A stretch of 64,000 bases of DNA from positions 186,001 through 250,000 of the forward strand of contig JANLFK010000001.1 of the NCBI GenBank assembly GCA_024655945.1. The letters run 5' to 3'. Each line of letters starts with the position of its first letter. The first letter of the stretch is position 1. Below are positions 6,491 to 44,079 of the stretch, in pieces. The notes under the pieces are model-generated. The model was not told where the DNA came from. It did not search any database and saw nothing but the letters and a program-made list of their open reading frames with translations. This stretch comes from a candidate division KSB1 bacterium (GTDB taxonomy: Bacteria > Zhuqueibacterota > Zhuqueibacteria > JANLFK01 > Oleimicrobiaceae). The translations under genes and the position numbers were made by a program.

Positions 6491-7866
6491 TCAGGCGAAC
6501 GGGCTCTCCTGCTCGATGCCAAGTTGCTTCATCTTCCTGTAGAGATTGGTGCGCTCAATGCCCAGCTGCGCCGCAGTGGCGTTCATGTTCCACGCATTGG
6601 CGATGAGTTTGGCCCTGATCAAGTCGCGCTCAAACCTTCTCCTTGCCTCGCGCAGCGGCAGTCCCACGTAGGTGAGCTCTAAGTTGTCCAGGTCCTCGGA
6701 CATCGCGTGCCGTATGTCCGGCAGGTCGATGACCTCTTTCTCGGCGAAAATCACCATGCGCTCAACGAGGTTGCGCAGCTCGCGCACGTTGCCGGCTCAG
6801 GCGGCACCGACAAGAGCCTCCATGGCTGCGGGCGTCAGGCGAATCTGTGGCTTGTGCTGTTCCTGGCATGCTTGCTTAAGGAAATGGGCCACCAATTGCG
6901 GTATGTCCTCCCGACGATCGCGAAGAGGAGGCACCTGGATCTTAACGACGTTGAGTCGGTAGTAGAGGTCCTCCCGGAAGCGGCCAGCGCGCACCTCTTC
7001 CTCAATGTTGCGATTGCTGGCGCCGATGAGGCGAACATTCACCATGCGCACGGCCTCGCTCCCCACAGGGTGCACCTCACCGCTCTCCAATGTGCGGAGG
7101 ACCTTCGCCTGCGCCGCCAGGCTCATGCTGCACAGTTCGTCGAGGAACACAGTACCACCGTTGGTATGCACGAAGATCCCCTCATGGTCCCGGATGGCCC
7201 CGGTGAAGGCTCCCTTCTTGTGGCCAAAGAACTGGCTCTCCAACACCCCCCCGGAACGGCCGAGCAATTGACCGCCACAAAGCGCCCCTTACGGCCGCTC
7301 AGGCGGTGGATAGCGGAAGCGACCAACTCTTTTCCCGTACCGGTCTCGCCCAGGATGAGCACGGTCGCATCGGTGGGTGCGGCCCGGTCGATGAGGGCGT
7401 AGACTTCGCGCATCTGGCTGCTGGTGCCGACCATGCCATGGCGCTCATAGAGCTCGGTCGCTGAGGCTGCCGCCAAGCGCAGCGCCTGCCCCTTCTGCAA
7501 ACTCTCCTGGATGTGCCGGAGGAGGTCCGGCAGTTTCAAGGGTTTTTCTAAGAAATCACTTGCGCCTTGCAGGATGGCATCCACCGCTTTCGGGATATCA
7601 CCATGGGCAGAAATCATCACCATAGGGCGCGTGCTGTCCAAGGCGACCAGGCGGCGCAGCAACTCCATGCCGCTCACTCCTGGCATCACCAGGTCGAGAA
7701 GCACAAGGTCCGGCTTCTCTTGTTCGGCCAGACGCAAGGCGTCCTGAGCAGTAGTGGCCGTCGACACCCGATAGCCCTCGTGGGTGAGGATGTCTTCCAT
7801 GATGTCGAGAGTCTTCTGTTCGTCGTCAACCACAAGGATGTGTGCTGCGCCCTGTCGTTTCATCAC
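6491..7866 (-). pseudogene. NtrC-family sigma-54 response regulator, broken by a frameshift and a TGA
   Basis: Read conceptually, this is a 458-residue NtrC-type activator: receiver domain (acidic pair DDE at 14-16, phospho-acceptor Asp58 in [10 protein letters not shown]), AAA+ domain with Walker A GETGTGKE, the sigma-54-contact loop GAFTGA, Walker B FLDELC and a Fis-type HTH at the C-terminus (ATAAQLGIERTNLYRKMKQL). Two lesions interrupt it. A run of seven C on the plus strand (7246-7252) is one base short of what is needed to join AVPGG to VLESQFFGH. At 6797-6799 a TGA takes the place of the invariant Trp in the W-x-G-N-V-R-E-L motif. The coding texture is otherwise well preserved, so the damage is recent or partly sequence error. 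It follows its sensor kinase by 13 nt. Confidence 0.9.
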
Positions 7867-7879
7867 CGTAACCCCTGGT

Positions 7880-9241
7880 TCAAGCTTGATAGGCAGGGAG
7901 TTCCACGCGGACGGTGGTCCCCGCGCCGACCTTGCTCTGCAGGCTGATGCGCCCCCCGTGTTCTTTGACTATCTGCCGGCAAATGCTCAGCCCAAGCCCT
8001 GTGCCTCCGTCCTTGCCGGCGACGTACGGTTCGAACACCCGGCCGAGGAGCTCCTCAGGAATGCCACACCCTGTGTCGCTGACTTCAAAGGCCACAAATT
8101 CGCGGCGCACCGGCTCACCGACGGTAAGCCATTGCGCCATGCCCACACGCAGAAAGATGCGACCTTTTCCTCTCATGGCGCGCACTGCATTGTCAAAGAT
8201 GTTGTAGAACAGGCGTTGCGTCGCTTCCAAGTCCACGCGTACCTGGGGGAGGCCCTCTTCGCACTCCACGATGAGGTTCACCGTTTCGGGCAGCCATTGG
8301 CGCACCTGGCGCTCCACCGCGCTGAGCAGCTCTCTTGCCTCCATGACGCATACCTTGGGAGGTTTCAGGCTGGTAAAACGCAAGAAGCCATCGGCGATGG
8401 CACGCAACCTCTCAATCTCTTCGATGGCCGAATCGACGTAGCGATCCATGGCGGCGCTGCTCTTTGTGCGAGTCTCGTGATAGGCCAACTGCAGGCGCTG
8501 CAAGGTCAACAGCACCGTGTGCAGGGGGTTCTTTATCTCGTGGGCCAACTGCTGCGCAAGGGCCGCCCAGTCCAAGGCCCGGCGCAGTTCAACGCTCGCA
8601 GAGGCGTCTTCTATGGTCAGAAGGCTCGCGCAAGGACGCCAACGCCTTTCCGAGACCGACACGCCGCGTATGACCCCCGCCTGGCCACCTGGGAGTTGCA
8701 CCATGCGATCATCCACTGGCTCCCGCACCTCGCCCTCGGTACCAAGCTCTTTCAGGACGACGCCGACTTCCTGGACTATCGCAGGCGGAAAGACTTCCGC
8801 GTAGTGCAACCCTCTGGGATCGGTGGCGCCGGCAACCATGTGGCGGCGGGCAATTCTGTTGCTGTGAACGACCCTGCCTTTGGCGTCGAGCAGGAAGGCC
8901 GCACAGGGGAATGCCCCGAGAATGCGCACAACCTCCCGCTGCTGGCATAAGTGAGACGTCCACAACCAGGCACAAAGGGCAGCAAGCACCAGGACCAGAG
9001 CCGCGAGTCCAATTGGCCCCAGCACTGCGGCTGCTCCTGCAGCCAAGGCAAATGCCTGCGATCCATCACACACCAGGGCGATCCCTCCGTCAGCCTCATG
9101 CTCGTCACGAAGGCCGAGCGCCGCTGCCGCAGTGTCTCCGGCAATGTAGATGCCCGACCCACGCCGGCCGGACTCTCGTGGACGAACAGACCCCACTTTT
9201 GGGCTCATTCGCCCACAGCCGAAGTTGCGCCGTCGGTGCAT
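7880..9241 (-). CDS. Membrane sensor histidine kinase of an NtrB/NtrC-type pair
   Basis: 453 residues: a short N-terminal part, one clear membrane segment (about 65-95), a PAS-like region (about 101-215), the phospho-acceptor H-box [10 protein letters not shown] (His234), N-box FDNAVRAM, G1 DTGCGIP and G2 GGTGLGLSI. It should autophosphorylate and pass phosphate to the response regulator encoded 13 nt downstream, which is broken here. The start is uncertain: ATG 9241 and ATG 9208 both lack good Shine-Dalgarno sequences. The promoter at 9283-9311 places transcription just upstream of either. Only one transmembrane helix is visible, so a periplasmic sensor domain, if ever present, is gone or very small. 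Confidence 0.85.
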
Positions 9242-9282
9242 AAAACACGCACCACGCCGGGCAAGCCGTCGCTTGGCGTTTG

Positions 9283-9311
9283 AACATACGCAACAGAGAG
9301 AAAATAGTCAA
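9283..9311 (-). promoter_or_regulatory. Sigma-70-type promoter for the sensor kinase operon
   Basis: TTGACT (9306-9311) and TATGTT (9283-9288) on the minus strand, 17 nt apart, with the start predicted near 9276, 35 nt before the ATG at 9241. Confidence 0.65.
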
Positions 9312-9404
9312 GCGAAAAGTGCGGGTGTCCTGTGCATCTCGGGCGCTCTCTTGGGCTCGGACAATCAACTCACCGGCGCAACAGCGTTCCGTCGGGCCAC
9401 AAAA

Positions 9405-9571
9405 GTGAAAGGCGGGTCCTCGTGGGCTGAGGAACCCGCCTTCCCCCCTATCACGACCCGCCGTCGCCCGGCCCTCCTTGAGCTCGATAGCTCCGACGTC
9501 CCCTAATCCAAGCAGTGCTTTGTTACCGTCCCATTCCGGTGCTGGCGATCGCAGTCGTTCCGTCGCTCCGC
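9405..9571 (-). ncRNA. Candidate sigma-54-dependent small RNA
   Basis: A transcript from the sigma-54 promoter at 9582-9597 would start near 9571 and end at the hairpin 9411-9440, giving about 165 nt. The interval has no plausible coding frame: its internal ATG opens only a three-codon frame. It holds a second short stem (GAGCT/AGCTC, 9480-9493) and an exposed AAGGAGG-like segment near 9475-9481 that is not followed by a start codon at a usual distance. No known RNA family was recognised. The boundaries are inferred from promoter and terminator only. Confidence 0.45.
9411..9440 (-). terminator. Intrinsic terminator, 11-bp stem
   Basis: On the minus strand GGCGGGT-T-CCTC pairs with GAGGACCCGCC around a 7-nt loop with one bulged U, followed by UUUCACUUUUG. 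It is oriented to end the transcript from the sigma-54 promoter and lies upstream of the kinase promoter. Confidence 0.65.
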
Positions 9572-9581
9572 AACGACCATT

Positions 9582-9597
9582 TGCAACTACCGGGCCA
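9582..9597 (-). promoter_or_regulatory. Sigma-54 (-24/-12) promoter
   Basis: The minus strand reads TGGCCCG-GTAG-TTGCA, matching the sigma-54 consensus TGGCACG-N4-TTGCW at all but one core base and keeping the diagnostic GG-N10-GC spacing. It lies in the intergenic strip beside a sigma-54 activator gene. Upstream sequence holds an imperfect inverted repeat TCACT/AGTGA (9671-9696) at a distance suitable for an enhancer, but this is weak. Confidence 0.65.
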
Positions 9598-9856
9598 CAG
9601 TGCCGATCTTGGGTCATTTGGAAAATCAGCACTTATGCCTGTCGTGCAGACCTCCTCATAAGGGGGTGTATCACTTTCGCAACATTTGGGCAGTGACTTT
9701 GTTTTTTCGACAACAGGGGGTCAGCTTAGCGCGGCGCGGGTCTGCGCGGGCTACCTCCGACTGCTCACACTTTGCGCCAACAGACGGAATGGGGTGAGGG
9801 AACGGCCGAAACGACGACGCGGACACTCCTCGCGGGAACGTCCGCGTACGCTGGTG

Positions 9857-9940
9857 TGCCGAAGGGGGGAGTCGAACCCCCACGGGCGTAAGCCCACACG
9901 GCCCTGAACCGTGCGCGTCTGCCAGTTTCACCACTTCGGC
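9857..9940 (-). tRNA. tRNA-Leu (anticodon CAG)
   Basis: The 84-nt minus-strand sequence forms a full class II cloverleaf: acceptor GCCGAAG/CTTCGGC, D-arm with GTGGTGAAACTGGCAGAC, anticodon stem CACGG/CCGTG around TTCAGGG (anticodon CAG, reading CUG), a long variable arm (GTGGGC/GCCCAC) and T-arm GGGGGTTCGACTCCCCC. Discriminator base is A. The 3' CCA is not encoded (CAC follows), so it must be added post-transcriptionally. The T and variable arms are intact and nothing suggests a pseudogene. Confidence 0.96.
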
Positions 9941-10288: not shown

Positions 10289-13200
10289 TTGACCGCACAC
10301 CCAACGCACGACGATACAGCAGTTCCCGGGCAGCCCATCCCTTTTGCTCCTGAGCAGGCGAGAGACGGTATTTTTGCCTTGGACCTTCGCGGCCAACTCT
10401 GTTACGCGAACCCTCGATTCCTTGAGCAGGTGGGTCGCCAGGGGTCAGAACTCCATGGCTGTCATCTGAAAGAGTTGGTCTCGGCCCGCCACCAAGACAG
10501 CGTGCGGGTGATGCTGAAACAGCTGCTGCGCGGCGCCGGCCATCCCCCCATTGAGGTAGAGCTCTCCAGAGGCCCGGAAGAGAGCATACCTGTAGAGATA
10601 CATGCCTGGTCAGTCCGCGAAGGGGGACGGATTGCCGGCGTGCAGGGTACCTACCGCGACCTTCGTCCGCGCCTGGGGGTGCACGAGGAATCCCTCGGCA
10701 CTACTGAGCTCTACGGCAGGCTCTTCGAGCTGACGCCGGAGGCTATCATAATCACTGGAGCAAGCGGCAAAGTGGTGAAAACCAACCGGGCGGCGGCACG
10801 CATGTTTGGGTTCGAGACCCCGGAGGCGATGTTAGGGCACAAGGGAGTCTCGCTCTATGCCGATCCCAGCGAGCGGGAAACCATCATAGCACAGCTGCGC
10901 GAACATGGTTTCGCCATCCAGCCAGACGGCAGGTTCCGGCGCAAGGACGGCTCGCACGGGCATTGTTGTGTGCGCGTTCAGGCACTCTATGACCAGTCCG
11001 GCCAGGTGCTCGGTGCCGTCGGCTTTCTCACCGACGTGACCGCCGAGCGTGAAGCGGGGAAGGCCCTGCGCGAGTCAGAACACCAGTTCCGCACCCTCGC
11101 CGAAGCCTCGCCAAACATGATCTTCATGGTCGCTGACGGGAAGATCGTGTACGCAAACAAGGCGGCAGAGGAGGCCCTCGGCCCTTTCTCGCCCTCTTCG
11201 CCGCTCCGCGATATTGTGGCGCAAGAACACTGGGAGGGGCTAAGAGCATATCTTGAGGCAGCCCAACGCAGGAACCAACGTGACCGCCTGGAATGCACCC
11301 TGATCTCCCCTGCCGGGCAGCACTTGGACGCTCTTGTCCACCTATCTCCTGTGGAGCACAAGGGGGGCCGAGCAGTTTTGGTGGTAGCCACGGATATCAG
11401 CGGACAGAAGAGAACGGAGCGCATCCTTCGTGACGTCGAAGCAAAGTACCGCACCCTCGTGGAGCAGTCTGCCTTTGGTGTGGCTCTCCTTTCGCTGGAG
11501 CCATTGCAGCTGCTCTTGGCGAACGAGGCCCTCGCCCGCATTCTCGGCTGTGCTCGGGAGAAGCTCTTAGGCATGCGCGGCCAGGAACTCCTCGCCCGCG
11601 TGCATCCCAACGACCGCGCTCGGATTCAGGAGTTCTTGGGGAAGGCCTTTGCCGCCGAACTCCGCCGCCACAGTGTCGTCCGTGTCATCGACGTAGATGG
11701 CGGCGTCCACCACATCGAATGCGAGGTGAGGAGGGTGACTATCGGGGGGATTCCCCTCCTGCAGTTCACCGCAATCGATATTACCGAGAGGCTTCGGGCA
11801 GAGACGGCACTCCGCGAGAGCCAGGAGAGGTACCGCGCCGTAGTGGAGGACCAGACCGAACTCATTTGCCGGCGCTCGGCCGACGGCACCATCCTTTTCG
11901 TGAATGAGGCCTACTGCCGCTACTATGGGAAGCAAGCCGCCGAACTGGTCGGCACCAAGTTCATGCCTGCCATGCCTGATAACCAGTTCCGGGAGGCGCG
12001 GGACCACTTCCTGGCCCTGCGCCCCTCGCGTCCTACGCTCACCCATGAGCACATTGTGCTCAACGCTAAGGGCGAGCAGCGGTGGATGCAGTGGACCACA
12101 AGGGCCCTTTTTGGCCGTCGCGGGCGCCTGACTGGGATGCAGGCGGTGGGACGAGACGTGACCGAGCAGAAACGTGCCGAACAGATGGCCAAGGAAAGGA
12201 CCGAAGACCTTGCCCTTGTGGCGCGCATGAACGGTGCGATAGCCGCCGGCGCGGGAATTCAGCGGGTGTTGCACATCTGCGCACAGGGCCTCATGCGGAG
12301 CTTCGGCTGCAAGATGACCACCGTCTTGTTGCGCAGCGAGGACGGGCGCTTTCTCCTCTGGGACAAGCGGATGCTCACCCGCACCCAGACCCGAAAGATT
12401 GAGGAGGCCATTAGACGCCCGCTTCCATCAGTCAGGATAGACTTGGAGTGTTCGCCGCACTTGCGCGCCGCGTTGCTGGCCGAGGCCCTCGAACTCGTGG
12501 CTGACGAGGAAGGGGCCGACGCGCTCTTGGCGGAGTTTGCCCGCGCGGTAGGCGTCAAGCGCAAGCGTTTTCCCGTGCTACGGCAACTGTTGGGGATGCC
12601 GCCGGCCATCAATGTCCCGTTACTCTGCGGTCAGGAGCATGTGGGCCTTGTCTCGATCTCGCGAGGTGCGGGGTTCACCGAAACCGAAGTGGCGCGCTTG
12701 AGAAACATCGCCGAGGCCTTAGTCTTGGCCGTCAAGCATCACAATCTGGAGGATTCGCTGCGACGCAATGAGGAGCGCCTTCGCCTCATGGCGGCGAACC
12801 TAAACGAGGGGCTGGCCATCATTGAAGACGACAAGGTCGTGTATGCCAATCCTCGCCTCCTGGAAATCTTTGCCTGTCCGGCAGAGAGCTTGGAGCCCGC
12901 GATGCTCTTGCAGTGTGCGGCTCCCGAGGAGCAGATGCGCGTGTGCACCATCGTCGAAGAAGCCCAGCGTCTTGGTCGACGAGAAGTGGAGCTGGAATAC
13001 TGGATTGTGCTCAATGGCGGCAGCCGCAGGTTTGTCCGCAGCCGATACGTCCGCTGCATGGATCGCGGTAAGGTCAGAACCTACCTGATCGCCAGCGATC
13101 TGACCGAACACCGCTTAGCAGATGTCAAACGGGAGCGCCTTATCGGCCAGCTGCTGCAGACGCTCAGCGAGGTCAAGACGCTGACAGGCTTGCTGCCCAT

Positions 13201-13414
13201 CTGTTCCTCATGCAAGAAGATTCGCGACGACAAAGGCTACTGGCACCGGGTGGAGAGCTATCTCAGCGCGCACACTTCCGCCCAGCTCAGCTGTGCGCTC
13301 TGCCCGGAGTGTGCGAGGAAAACACATGGGCAGAGTGCCCAAAAGAAAGCCGCACAGACCCGCGGCCGTGGAGGAAGGCACACTCCACCACCAACCAGTG
13401 CGAAGCAGAGATGA
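10289..13414 (+). CDS. Multi-PAS/GAF sensor protein with C-terminal Cys-rich SSCKKIRDDKGYW module
   Basis: 1041 residues with no membrane segment. Six PAS-like units can be followed (roughly 25-128, 142-257, 267-380, 387-505, 514-632 and 829-945), each ending in the usual D-[IV]-T/S-[EG] exit, with a GAF-like domain between the fifth and sixth (about 640-828). The C-terminus (about 946-1015) is a helix then a CSSCKKIRDDKGYW segment and CALCPEC, a four-cysteine probable zinc module found at the end of many bacterial PAS proteins that lack a kinase. No histidine kinase, GGDEF or HTH is present, so the output is unknown. Start is TTG at 10289, 7 nt after AGGAGG. Its stop overlaps the smpB start (ATGA). 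Confidence 0.85.
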   Translation: MTAHPTHDDTAVPGQPIPFAPEQARDGIFALDLRGQLCYANPRFLEQVGRQGSELHGCHLKELVSARHQDSVRVMLKQLLRGAGHPPIEVELSRGPEESIPVEIHAWSVREGGRIAGVQGTYRDLRPRLGVHEESLGTTELYGRLFELTPEAIIITGASGKVVKTNRAAARMFGFETPEAMLGHKGVSLYADPSERETIIAQLREHGFAIQPDGRFRRKDGSHGHCCVRVQALYDQSGQVLGAVGFLTDVTAEREAGKALRESEHQFRTLAEASPNMIFMVADGKIVYANKAAEEALGPFSPSSPLRDIVAQEHWEGLRAYLEAAQRRNQRDRLECTLISPAGQHLDALVHLSPVEHKGGRAVLVVATDISGQKRTERILRDVEAKYRTLVEQSAFGVALLSLEPLQLLLANEALARILGCAREKLLGMRGQELLARVHPNDRARIQEFLGKAFAAELRRHSVVRVIDVDGGVHHIECEVRRVTIGGIPLLQFTAIDITERLRAETALRESQERYRAVVEDQTELICRRSADGTILFVNEAYCRYYGKQAAELVGTKFMPAMPDNQFREARDHFLALRPSRPTLTHEHIVLNAKGEQRWMQWTTRALFGRRGRLTGMQAVGRDVTEQKRAEQMAKERTEDLALVARMNGAIAAGAGIQRVLHICAQGLMRSFGCKMTTVLLRSEDGRFLLWDKRMLTRTQTRKIEEAIRRPLPSVRIDLECSPHLRAALLAEALELVADEEGADALLAEFARAVGVKRKRFPVLRQLLGMPPAINVPLLCGQEHVGLVSISRGAGFTETEVARLRNIAEALVLAVKHHNLEDSLRRNEERLRLMAANLNEGLAIIEDDKVVYANPRLLEIFACPAESLEPAMLLQCAAPEEQMRVCTIVEEAQRLGRREVELEYWIVLNGGSRRFVRSRYVRCMDRGKVRTYLIASDLTEHRLADVKRERLIGQLLQTLSEVKTLTGLLPICSSCKKIRDDKGYWHRVESYLSAHTSAQLSCALCPECARKTHGQSAQKKAAQTRGRGGRHTPPPTSAKQR

Positions 13415-15180: not shown

Positions 15181-15199
15181 GTCCTCCAGGAGGGTGAAG

Positions 15200-15768
15200 A
15201 TGGTCCGACGGTGGCACAAGACTGAGATCGAGCTCCTGCGCGGCGACATCACGGAGATGGCAACCGACGCCATTGTCAACGCTGCCAATGAGCATCTTGC
15301 TCATGGTGCAGGCGTAGCTGGGGCCATTGTGCGCAAAGGCGGGCGCATCATCCAGGAGGAGAGTAACGCCTGGGTGCGCACCCATGGCCGCGTGCCCACC
15401 GGCTCTGCTGCCATCACCAGCGGGGGGCGCTGAAGGCCCGCTACCTGATCCACGCGGTCGGGCCGGTCATGGGATCAGGCGAGGAGGAGCGAAAGCTGCG
15501 CGACGCCACCATCGCCAGCCTGCGCTTAGCTGATGCCCACGGCCTGACCAGCATCGCCTTTCCGGCCATCAGTACCGGTGTGTTCGGCTGCCCAATGGAG
15601 CTTTGCGCCCGAGCCATGCTGAGCGCCGTGCGCGATTATGCCGACGGCGCTACGGGCATACGACGCATCGTCTTCTGCCTGTGGGACGAAGAGGCCTTGG
15701 CAGTCTTTTCGGCCCAGCTCGAGACCCTCATACCACAGTCAGCCGGGGAGCCCCCGCTGCTTCATTGA
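15200..15768 (+). pseudogene. Macrodomain (ADP-ribose-binding) protein with a one-base frameshift
   Basis: Conceptually 189 residues. The first part carries the macrodomain core [19 protein letters not shown] and HGAGVAGAI, the second part HAVGP and PAISTGVFGCP, which bind the ADP-ribose phosphates. Macrodomains of this type hydrolyse O-acetyl-ADP-ribose or ADP-ribosylated groups. A run of six G at 15422-15427 is one base short: with seven, ITSGG joins [13 protein letters not shown]. As given, translation stops at a TGA seven bases later. The ATG at 15200 has AGGAGG 6 nt upstream. It lies 19 nt after tyrS and overlaps the end of the DUF1844 gene tail to tail. The gene may be intact in the organism if the run is a sequencing error. 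Confidence 0.85.
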
Positions 15769-43892: not shown

Positions 43893-43953
43893 CCGCAGAT
43901 GTCCAGGCAATAAGCCTGCGCAGCGCTTAACCGCGCGCCAGCTCTTGTCAGGG

Positions 43954-44072
43954 TCTTCTCCCGTCCGGGCTGTCACCGTCGGCGCCGGGATTGCACCGGC
44001 TCTGTCCCTCCGATCGGGATCGGGACTCGCGGGCTCTTACCGCCGGCAAGGAATTTCACCTGGCCCCGAAGA
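43954..44072 (-). promoter_or_regulatory. FMN riboswitch (RFN element)
   Basis: The minus strand carries the RFN consensus in order: TCTTCGGGGCCAGGTGAAAT, CCGGCGGTAAGAGCCCGCGA, GTGCAATCCCGGCGCCGACG and GACAGCCCGGACGGGAGAAG. It precedes ribD and is followed by a terminator-like hairpin, so FMN presumably shuts off the operon. Confidence 0.95.
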
Positions 44073-44079
44073 CCGCTTT

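Follow-up and report, generated by a model that had tools for sequence, protein, structure and literature searches.

A predicted sigma-54-dependent small RNA beside an NtrC-type two-component system in a genus of candidate division KSB1

Introduction

Two-component systems that have one sigma-54-dependent small RNA (sRNA) as their main output are known from a few Gammaproteobacteria. In Pseudomonas, the sRNAs CrcZ and CrcY are transcribed from RpoN promoters via CbrB, the NtrC-type regulator of the adjacent CbrA/CbrB system, and CrcZ, which is located after cbrB, contains A-rich Hfq/Crc decoy motifs. The Qrr RNAs of Vibrio are sigma-54-dependent sRNAs activated by the NtrC-type regulator LuxO; they are Hfq-dependent, about 100 nt long and often multicopy, and one copy adjoins luxO. 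The glmY-glrK-glrR locus (QseE/QseF) of the Enterobacteriaceae, with a kinase, a regulator, tandem upstream activator sites (UAS), a sigma-54 promoter and an sRNA, has the anatomy closest to that of the locus described here. In Escherichia coli, the RNA and the operon have independent promoters (PMC8745638), and the UAS consensus of QseF/GlrR at glmY is TGT-N12-ACA (PMC6075780).

Here we describe a locus found in a 64,000-nt stretch of DNA (the window) from a candidate division KSB1 bacterium. The window belongs to genome G000 and was compared with G001 and G002, the other two genomes of the genus, of which G002 is the more distant. The features of the locus, all on the minus strand, are as follows.

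9856–9940 (−): tRNA-Leu(CAG), the conserved upstream neighbour
9698–9715 (−): candidate UAS1, TGTTGTCGAAAAAACAAA, centred about −136, degenerate in the window
9667–9684 (−): candidate UAS2, TGTTGCGAAAGTGATACA, a TGT-N12-ACA dyad centred about −105, 83–89% identical among the three genomes
9582–9597 (−): sigma-54 −24/−12 promoter predicted from sequence, TGGCCCGGTAGTTGCA, with every fixed position retained in both relatives
9401–9571 (−): predicted sRNA of about 160–171 nt, delimited by the promoter and terminator positions and conserved in the relatives (L003 and L004)
9448–9511 (−): conserved RNA core of 64 nt, 95% (G001) and 84% (G002) identical
9411–9440 (−): intrinsic terminator hairpin predicted by folding, with a T-rich tail at 9401–9410, conserved with one doubly changed pair
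9283–9311 (−): sigma-70-like promoter TTGACT-N17-TATGTT, conserved in the three genomes and likely a separate promoter of the kinase-regulator operon
7880–9241 (−): histidine kinase, with weak PAS_4, HisKA and HATPase_c matches
6491–7866 (−): NtrC-type response regulator, with receiver, Sigma54_activat (GAFTGA) and HTH_8 domains

Comparison with known systems

The locus resembles that of E. coli GlmY, a sigma-54-dependent sRNA of 184 nt as annotated, in that the predicted RNA gene immediately precedes a kinase-regulator operon encoded on the same strand. When applied as a positive control to E. coli glmY, the script used for this locus identified TGT-N12-ACA at −125, −188 and −221 and TGGCACAGTTACTGC at −27. 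Three UAS are thus present at E. coli glmY, against two here, and in contrast to the enterobacterial system no qseG-type gene separates the kinase from the regulator, Hfq was not found, and the host lies outside the Enterobacteriaceae, in a phylum of which 82 genomes were searched. The RNA has no Rfam match, and the regulator scores under the cut-off of the GlrR equivalog (358 bits in G001 and 369 in G002; cut-off 763). As neither the RNA nor the regulator is orthologous by the tests made, the locus is not a member of the glmY-glrKR family, and the shared UAS consensus is a resemblance and no proof of kinship, since the bare TGT-N12-ACA string is common.

The likeness to CrcZ/CrcY and CbrA/CbrB consists of an sRNA with an RpoN promoter and an adjacent two-component system with an NtrC-type regulator; here, however, a G-rich RNA precedes the kinase, and no Hfq was detected. 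The combination of a sigma-54 sRNA and a neighbouring NtrC-type response regulator is shared with Qrr/LuxO, from which the locus differs in being single copy and in having a regulator below the LuxO cut-off (342–356; cut-off 800). The regulator also falls below the curated equivalog cut-offs of NtrC (best score 393 bits; cut-off 558.6), AtoC and ZraR, and the kinase reached no curated equivalog among the matches listed.

The sigma-54 promoter and candidate activator sites

The minus strand at 9597–9582 reads TGGCCCG-GTAG-TTGCA, with the correct GG-N10-GC spacing. The window contains no other match to TGGCMCGNNNNTTGCW, 0.05 being the number expected from shuffled sequences, and 12 of the 16 positions of the element are identical in G002, with all fixed bases kept and the differences confined to the N4 spacer. 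Genome-wide, the strict pattern gave 9, 7 and 5 matches in the three genomes of the genus, compared with 1, 0 and 1 in a reversed control. Several of these sites precede genes of kinds plausible for sigma-54 control, among them flgB, hsp20 and another NtrC-type regulator, as judged from the translations, and one copy of RpoN (PF04552) is encoded in each genome. The sigma-54-like promoter of the hsp20-type gene is found in all three genomes (L057, L041 and L049) and is of an unusual class for a small heat-shock protein.

Further upstream are two imperfect tandem TGT-N12-ACA dyads, 31–32 bp or some three helical turns apart. UAS1 is a full dyad in the relatives (TGTTGTGGAAAAACAACA in G001 and TGTTGCAAAAAAACGACA in G002). 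A motif fitted to these sites, with one mismatch allowed, matched the dyad pair alone in G002, the pair and one weak site elsewhere in G001, and UAS2 and one weak site elsewhere in G000. Having been derived from the sites themselves, the motif is informative only through its scarcity elsewhere. As predicted sites of the right kind and in the right position, the tandem dyads are a further argument for control by an NtrC-type activator.

The predicted RNA and its terminator

With the C of the −12 GC at 9583, transcription would be expected to start near 9571; the 5′ end of the predicted RNA was accordingly placed 12 nt downstream of this C, and the 3′ end at the T tract. The hairpin at 9440–9411 has the arms GGCGGGTTCCTC and GAGGACCCGCC, which form a GGCGGGT/ACCCGCC stem, followed by the tail TTTCACTTTT. 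A simple generic terminator scan missed it, since the U tract is interrupted and contains no pure T run. In the relatives, both bases of one pair are changed (A-U to G-C), although the covariation is thin, with one doubly changed pair in three genomes of one genus. Compared with shuffled sequence, the predicted RNA gives a better fold (z −2.2), mostly owing to the terminator.

Within the core, 32 consecutive nucleotides (TGGATTAGGGGACGTCGGAGCTATCGAGCTCA) are invariant in the three genomes and the remainder is nearly so. Identity is lower than this in the 5′ part of the transcript (81% in G001 and 34% in G002).

A first-pass annotation of the window had recorded the TGGCCCG-N4-TTGCA element with its GG-N10-GC spacing, a hairpin with a U-rich tail at 9411–9440, and nothing between them that looked coding. 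The element was confirmed as the sole strict match, the stem and tail of the hairpin are kept in both relatives, and no ORF starting with ATG, GTG or TTG after the predicted start is common to the three genomes across the interval. The suggestion that an AAGGAGG-like patch might titrate or pair with something fared less well, as the relatives read AGCGAGG and AGTGAGG. The patch sits in an apical loop (AAGGA, AGCGA and AGTGA) and, because this loop differs among the three genomes, it is not the active part; a role as a Shine-Dalgarno mimic or pairing patch was rejected for lack of conservation.

Conservation and distribution

The order tRNA-Leu(CAG), sigma-54 element, RNA, kinase and regulator is common to the three genomes. 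Compared with G002, the window shows conserved islands at UAS2 (83%), the core (84%), the terminator (84%) and the sigma-70 box (83%), separated by poorly conserved sequence in the spacer after the tRNA (32%), between UAS2 and the promoter (45%), in the first 59 nt of the RNA (34%) and between the terminator and the sigma-70 box (39%); the kinase gene is 63% identical. This is the pattern that selection on a promoter, an RNA core and a terminator would leave. Conservation of the promoter/terminator pair in close relatives, the test that the first-pass annotation had set for itself, was observed in G001 as well as in G002, where the neighbours also follow in the same order.

The interval 9200–9720 had no Rfam match at gathering, nor up to E 10, and a new covariance model of the core and terminator identified a single locus per genome in the three members of the genus and none in the 79 other genomes of the phylum (82 searched). 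Since the model matched members of the genus only, the RNA seems to be genus-specific among the genomes compared. Searches of genome_contigs and viral_contigs, collections from which near relatives of the window may be absent, found no exact copy of a 20-nt piece of the core. Distant homologues of the kinase from two other families (G025 and G005) have no sigma-54 element and no tRNA nearby. Judging from these comparisons, the RNA seems to represent a new, previously undescribed family of a known functional kind, seemingly confined to one genus.

The kinase-regulator operon

The adjacent operon had been read as encoding an NtrC-type regulator, which is correct: a regulator with receiver, sigma-54 AAA+ and HTH_8 domains and a GAFTGA motif adjoins the RNA locus in all three genomes. 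The start codon of the kinase is uncertain, as homology begins near 9090. In the window, the regulator domains are spread over three fragments, while they are continuous in the relatives, where the gene is intact. Relative to G001, the window has lost 1 nt beside a G7 run near 7245, giving a frameshift, and near 6800 it has TGA where the relatives have TGG. A macro-domain gene at 15194–15768 (+) is likewise divided between two frames, at a G6 run near 15421–15427, probably by another assembly indel error, which makes such an error plausible for the regulator frameshift. The TGA, however, is a substitution, for which such indels give no explanation. If the assembly is correct at these sites, the interrupted regulator and the degenerate UAS1 suggest that the circuit may be decaying in the species of the window.

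Beyond the tRNA, at 10289–13414 (+), the window encodes a protein of 1041 amino acids with many PAS domains, which is found in the same place in G001 and G002. Pfam recognized no kinase or cyclase output domain in this protein.

Proposed circuit and alternative explanations

Taken as a whole, the locus is probably best explained as a stand-alone sRNA gene whose sigma-54 promoter is switched on by the adjacent two-component system. This is the arrangement put forward in the first-pass annotation, and the conserved promoter/terminator pair and the upstream dyads argue for it. The histidine kinase would phosphorylate its NtrC-type partner, which would bind both TGT-N12-ACA dyads, some 105 and 136 bp before the start, and contact RpoN-RNA polymerase at 9582–9597, thereby firing transcription. 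Transcription would end at the hairpin at 9411–9440 and give an RNA of about 160–170 nt. The kinase-regulator operon would be made separately, from the sigma-70-like promoter at 9283–9311.

The interval might instead be the 5′ leader of the kinase-regulator mRNA, with the sigma-54 promoter serving autoregulation and the hairpin acting as an attenuator or processing site. The common strand and the short distance from the terminator to the kinase gene (about 170–300 nt) are compatible with a leader, and glmY and qseEGF are co-transcribed in Proteus mirabilis (PMC8745638). However, a conserved, separate sigma-70-like promoter is found between the terminator and the kinase gene, and the gap leading up to it is not conserved (39% identity); the fold is conserved without an obvious competing antiterminator, and Rfam identified no riboswitch in the interval. 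A leader is therefore unlikely, and the separate promoter of the operon makes the RNA look like the output of the system more than its leader. A short protein could be encoded by a frame reading LGLGDVGAIEL.EGRATAG, which stays open through the core in each of the genomes and in which one core difference is a 3-nt deletion. Downstream of the predicted transcription start, neither the window nor G001 has an ATG, GTG or TTG to open this frame; over the 32 nt, third codon positions vary no more than first and second ones, and the frame remains open into and past the hairpin. We regard coding as very improbable, because two of the three genomes offer no start for the frame, which also extends across the terminator. 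Hardly more credible is a chance association of a sigma-54-like string with an unrelated hairpin, their conservation having some other cause: loose strings of this kind are common (90 TGG-N9-TGC in the window), but the strict pattern is rare, and each predicted element is conserved while the sequence between the elements is not.

Mode of action

A sigma-54-dependent RNA of the kind proposed would act in trans without Hfq, most likely via the invariant 32-nt core, by base-pairing or protein binding. Hfq (PF17209) was detected in none of the three genus genomes, while the same profile matched 5 of 14 control genomes. The exact 11-nt complement of the core revealed no gene start common to the genomes and no conserved target.

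Each of the three genomes has csrA, and with hfq not found, the RNA could also be a CsrB/RsmZ-like decoy that binds CsrA via GGA motifs and is switched on by the two-component system. With respect to control, a decoy is a sub-case of the circuit outlined above; with respect to mode of action it is a rival, and one that we consider rather doubtful. The RNA resembles CsrB, RsmY and RsmZ in being GGA-rich and, as far as can be inferred, under two-component control. The three RNAs contain 10, 8 and 10 GGA motifs, compared with 5.2, 4.6 and 6.2 in shuffled sequences (p 0.012, 0.057 and 0.053, three values that are not independent), and 10 GGA per 171 nt is reached in 0.2% of segments of that length in the 64 kb, or 1.1% when G content is matched. 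The number of motifs is kept even in the unalignable 5′ part. Against this, the enrichment is modest in an RNA that is itself G-rich, two of the motifs in each genome are buried in the terminator, and Rfam gave no sequence or structure match to CsrB, RsmY or RsmZ. The location of csrA after a fliW-like gene in G002 also suggests that a protein antagonist of CsrA already exists. The strict conservation of the 32-nt core exceeds what GGA-decoy RNAs should need, and suggests pairing or a specific protein contact, beside or instead of a CsrA decoy. In the G002 segment concerned (L094, 1030–1857), CsrA looks to be of the flagellar, FliW-linked kind.

Significance and other features of the window

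More tentatively, and with less confidence than in the circuit itself, we suggest that the module may have an origin separate from that of the enterobacterial glmY-glrKR, with convergence on one layout and on the TGT-N12-ACA UAS, in a phylum that apparently lacks Hfq; its regulator would be dedicated, with the RNA as its only clear target, and the RNA might titrate CsrA. If the same anatomy has indeed been built around an unrelated RNA and with a regulator that is no orthologue, it would show that circuits of this design evolve repeatedly and need no Hfq. The setting is a sparsely studied phylum, with Hfq undetected in the genomes of the genus. The 64-nt core and a UAS motif that is nearly unique in each genome make the activator and the RNA targets directly testable.

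Elsewhere in the window, an FMN riboswitch (RFN, 102.9 bits) was identified at 43949–44077 (−). It is followed by a frame resembling a RibD-type riboflavin deaminase/reductase and then by the start of a riboflavin synthase-like frame.
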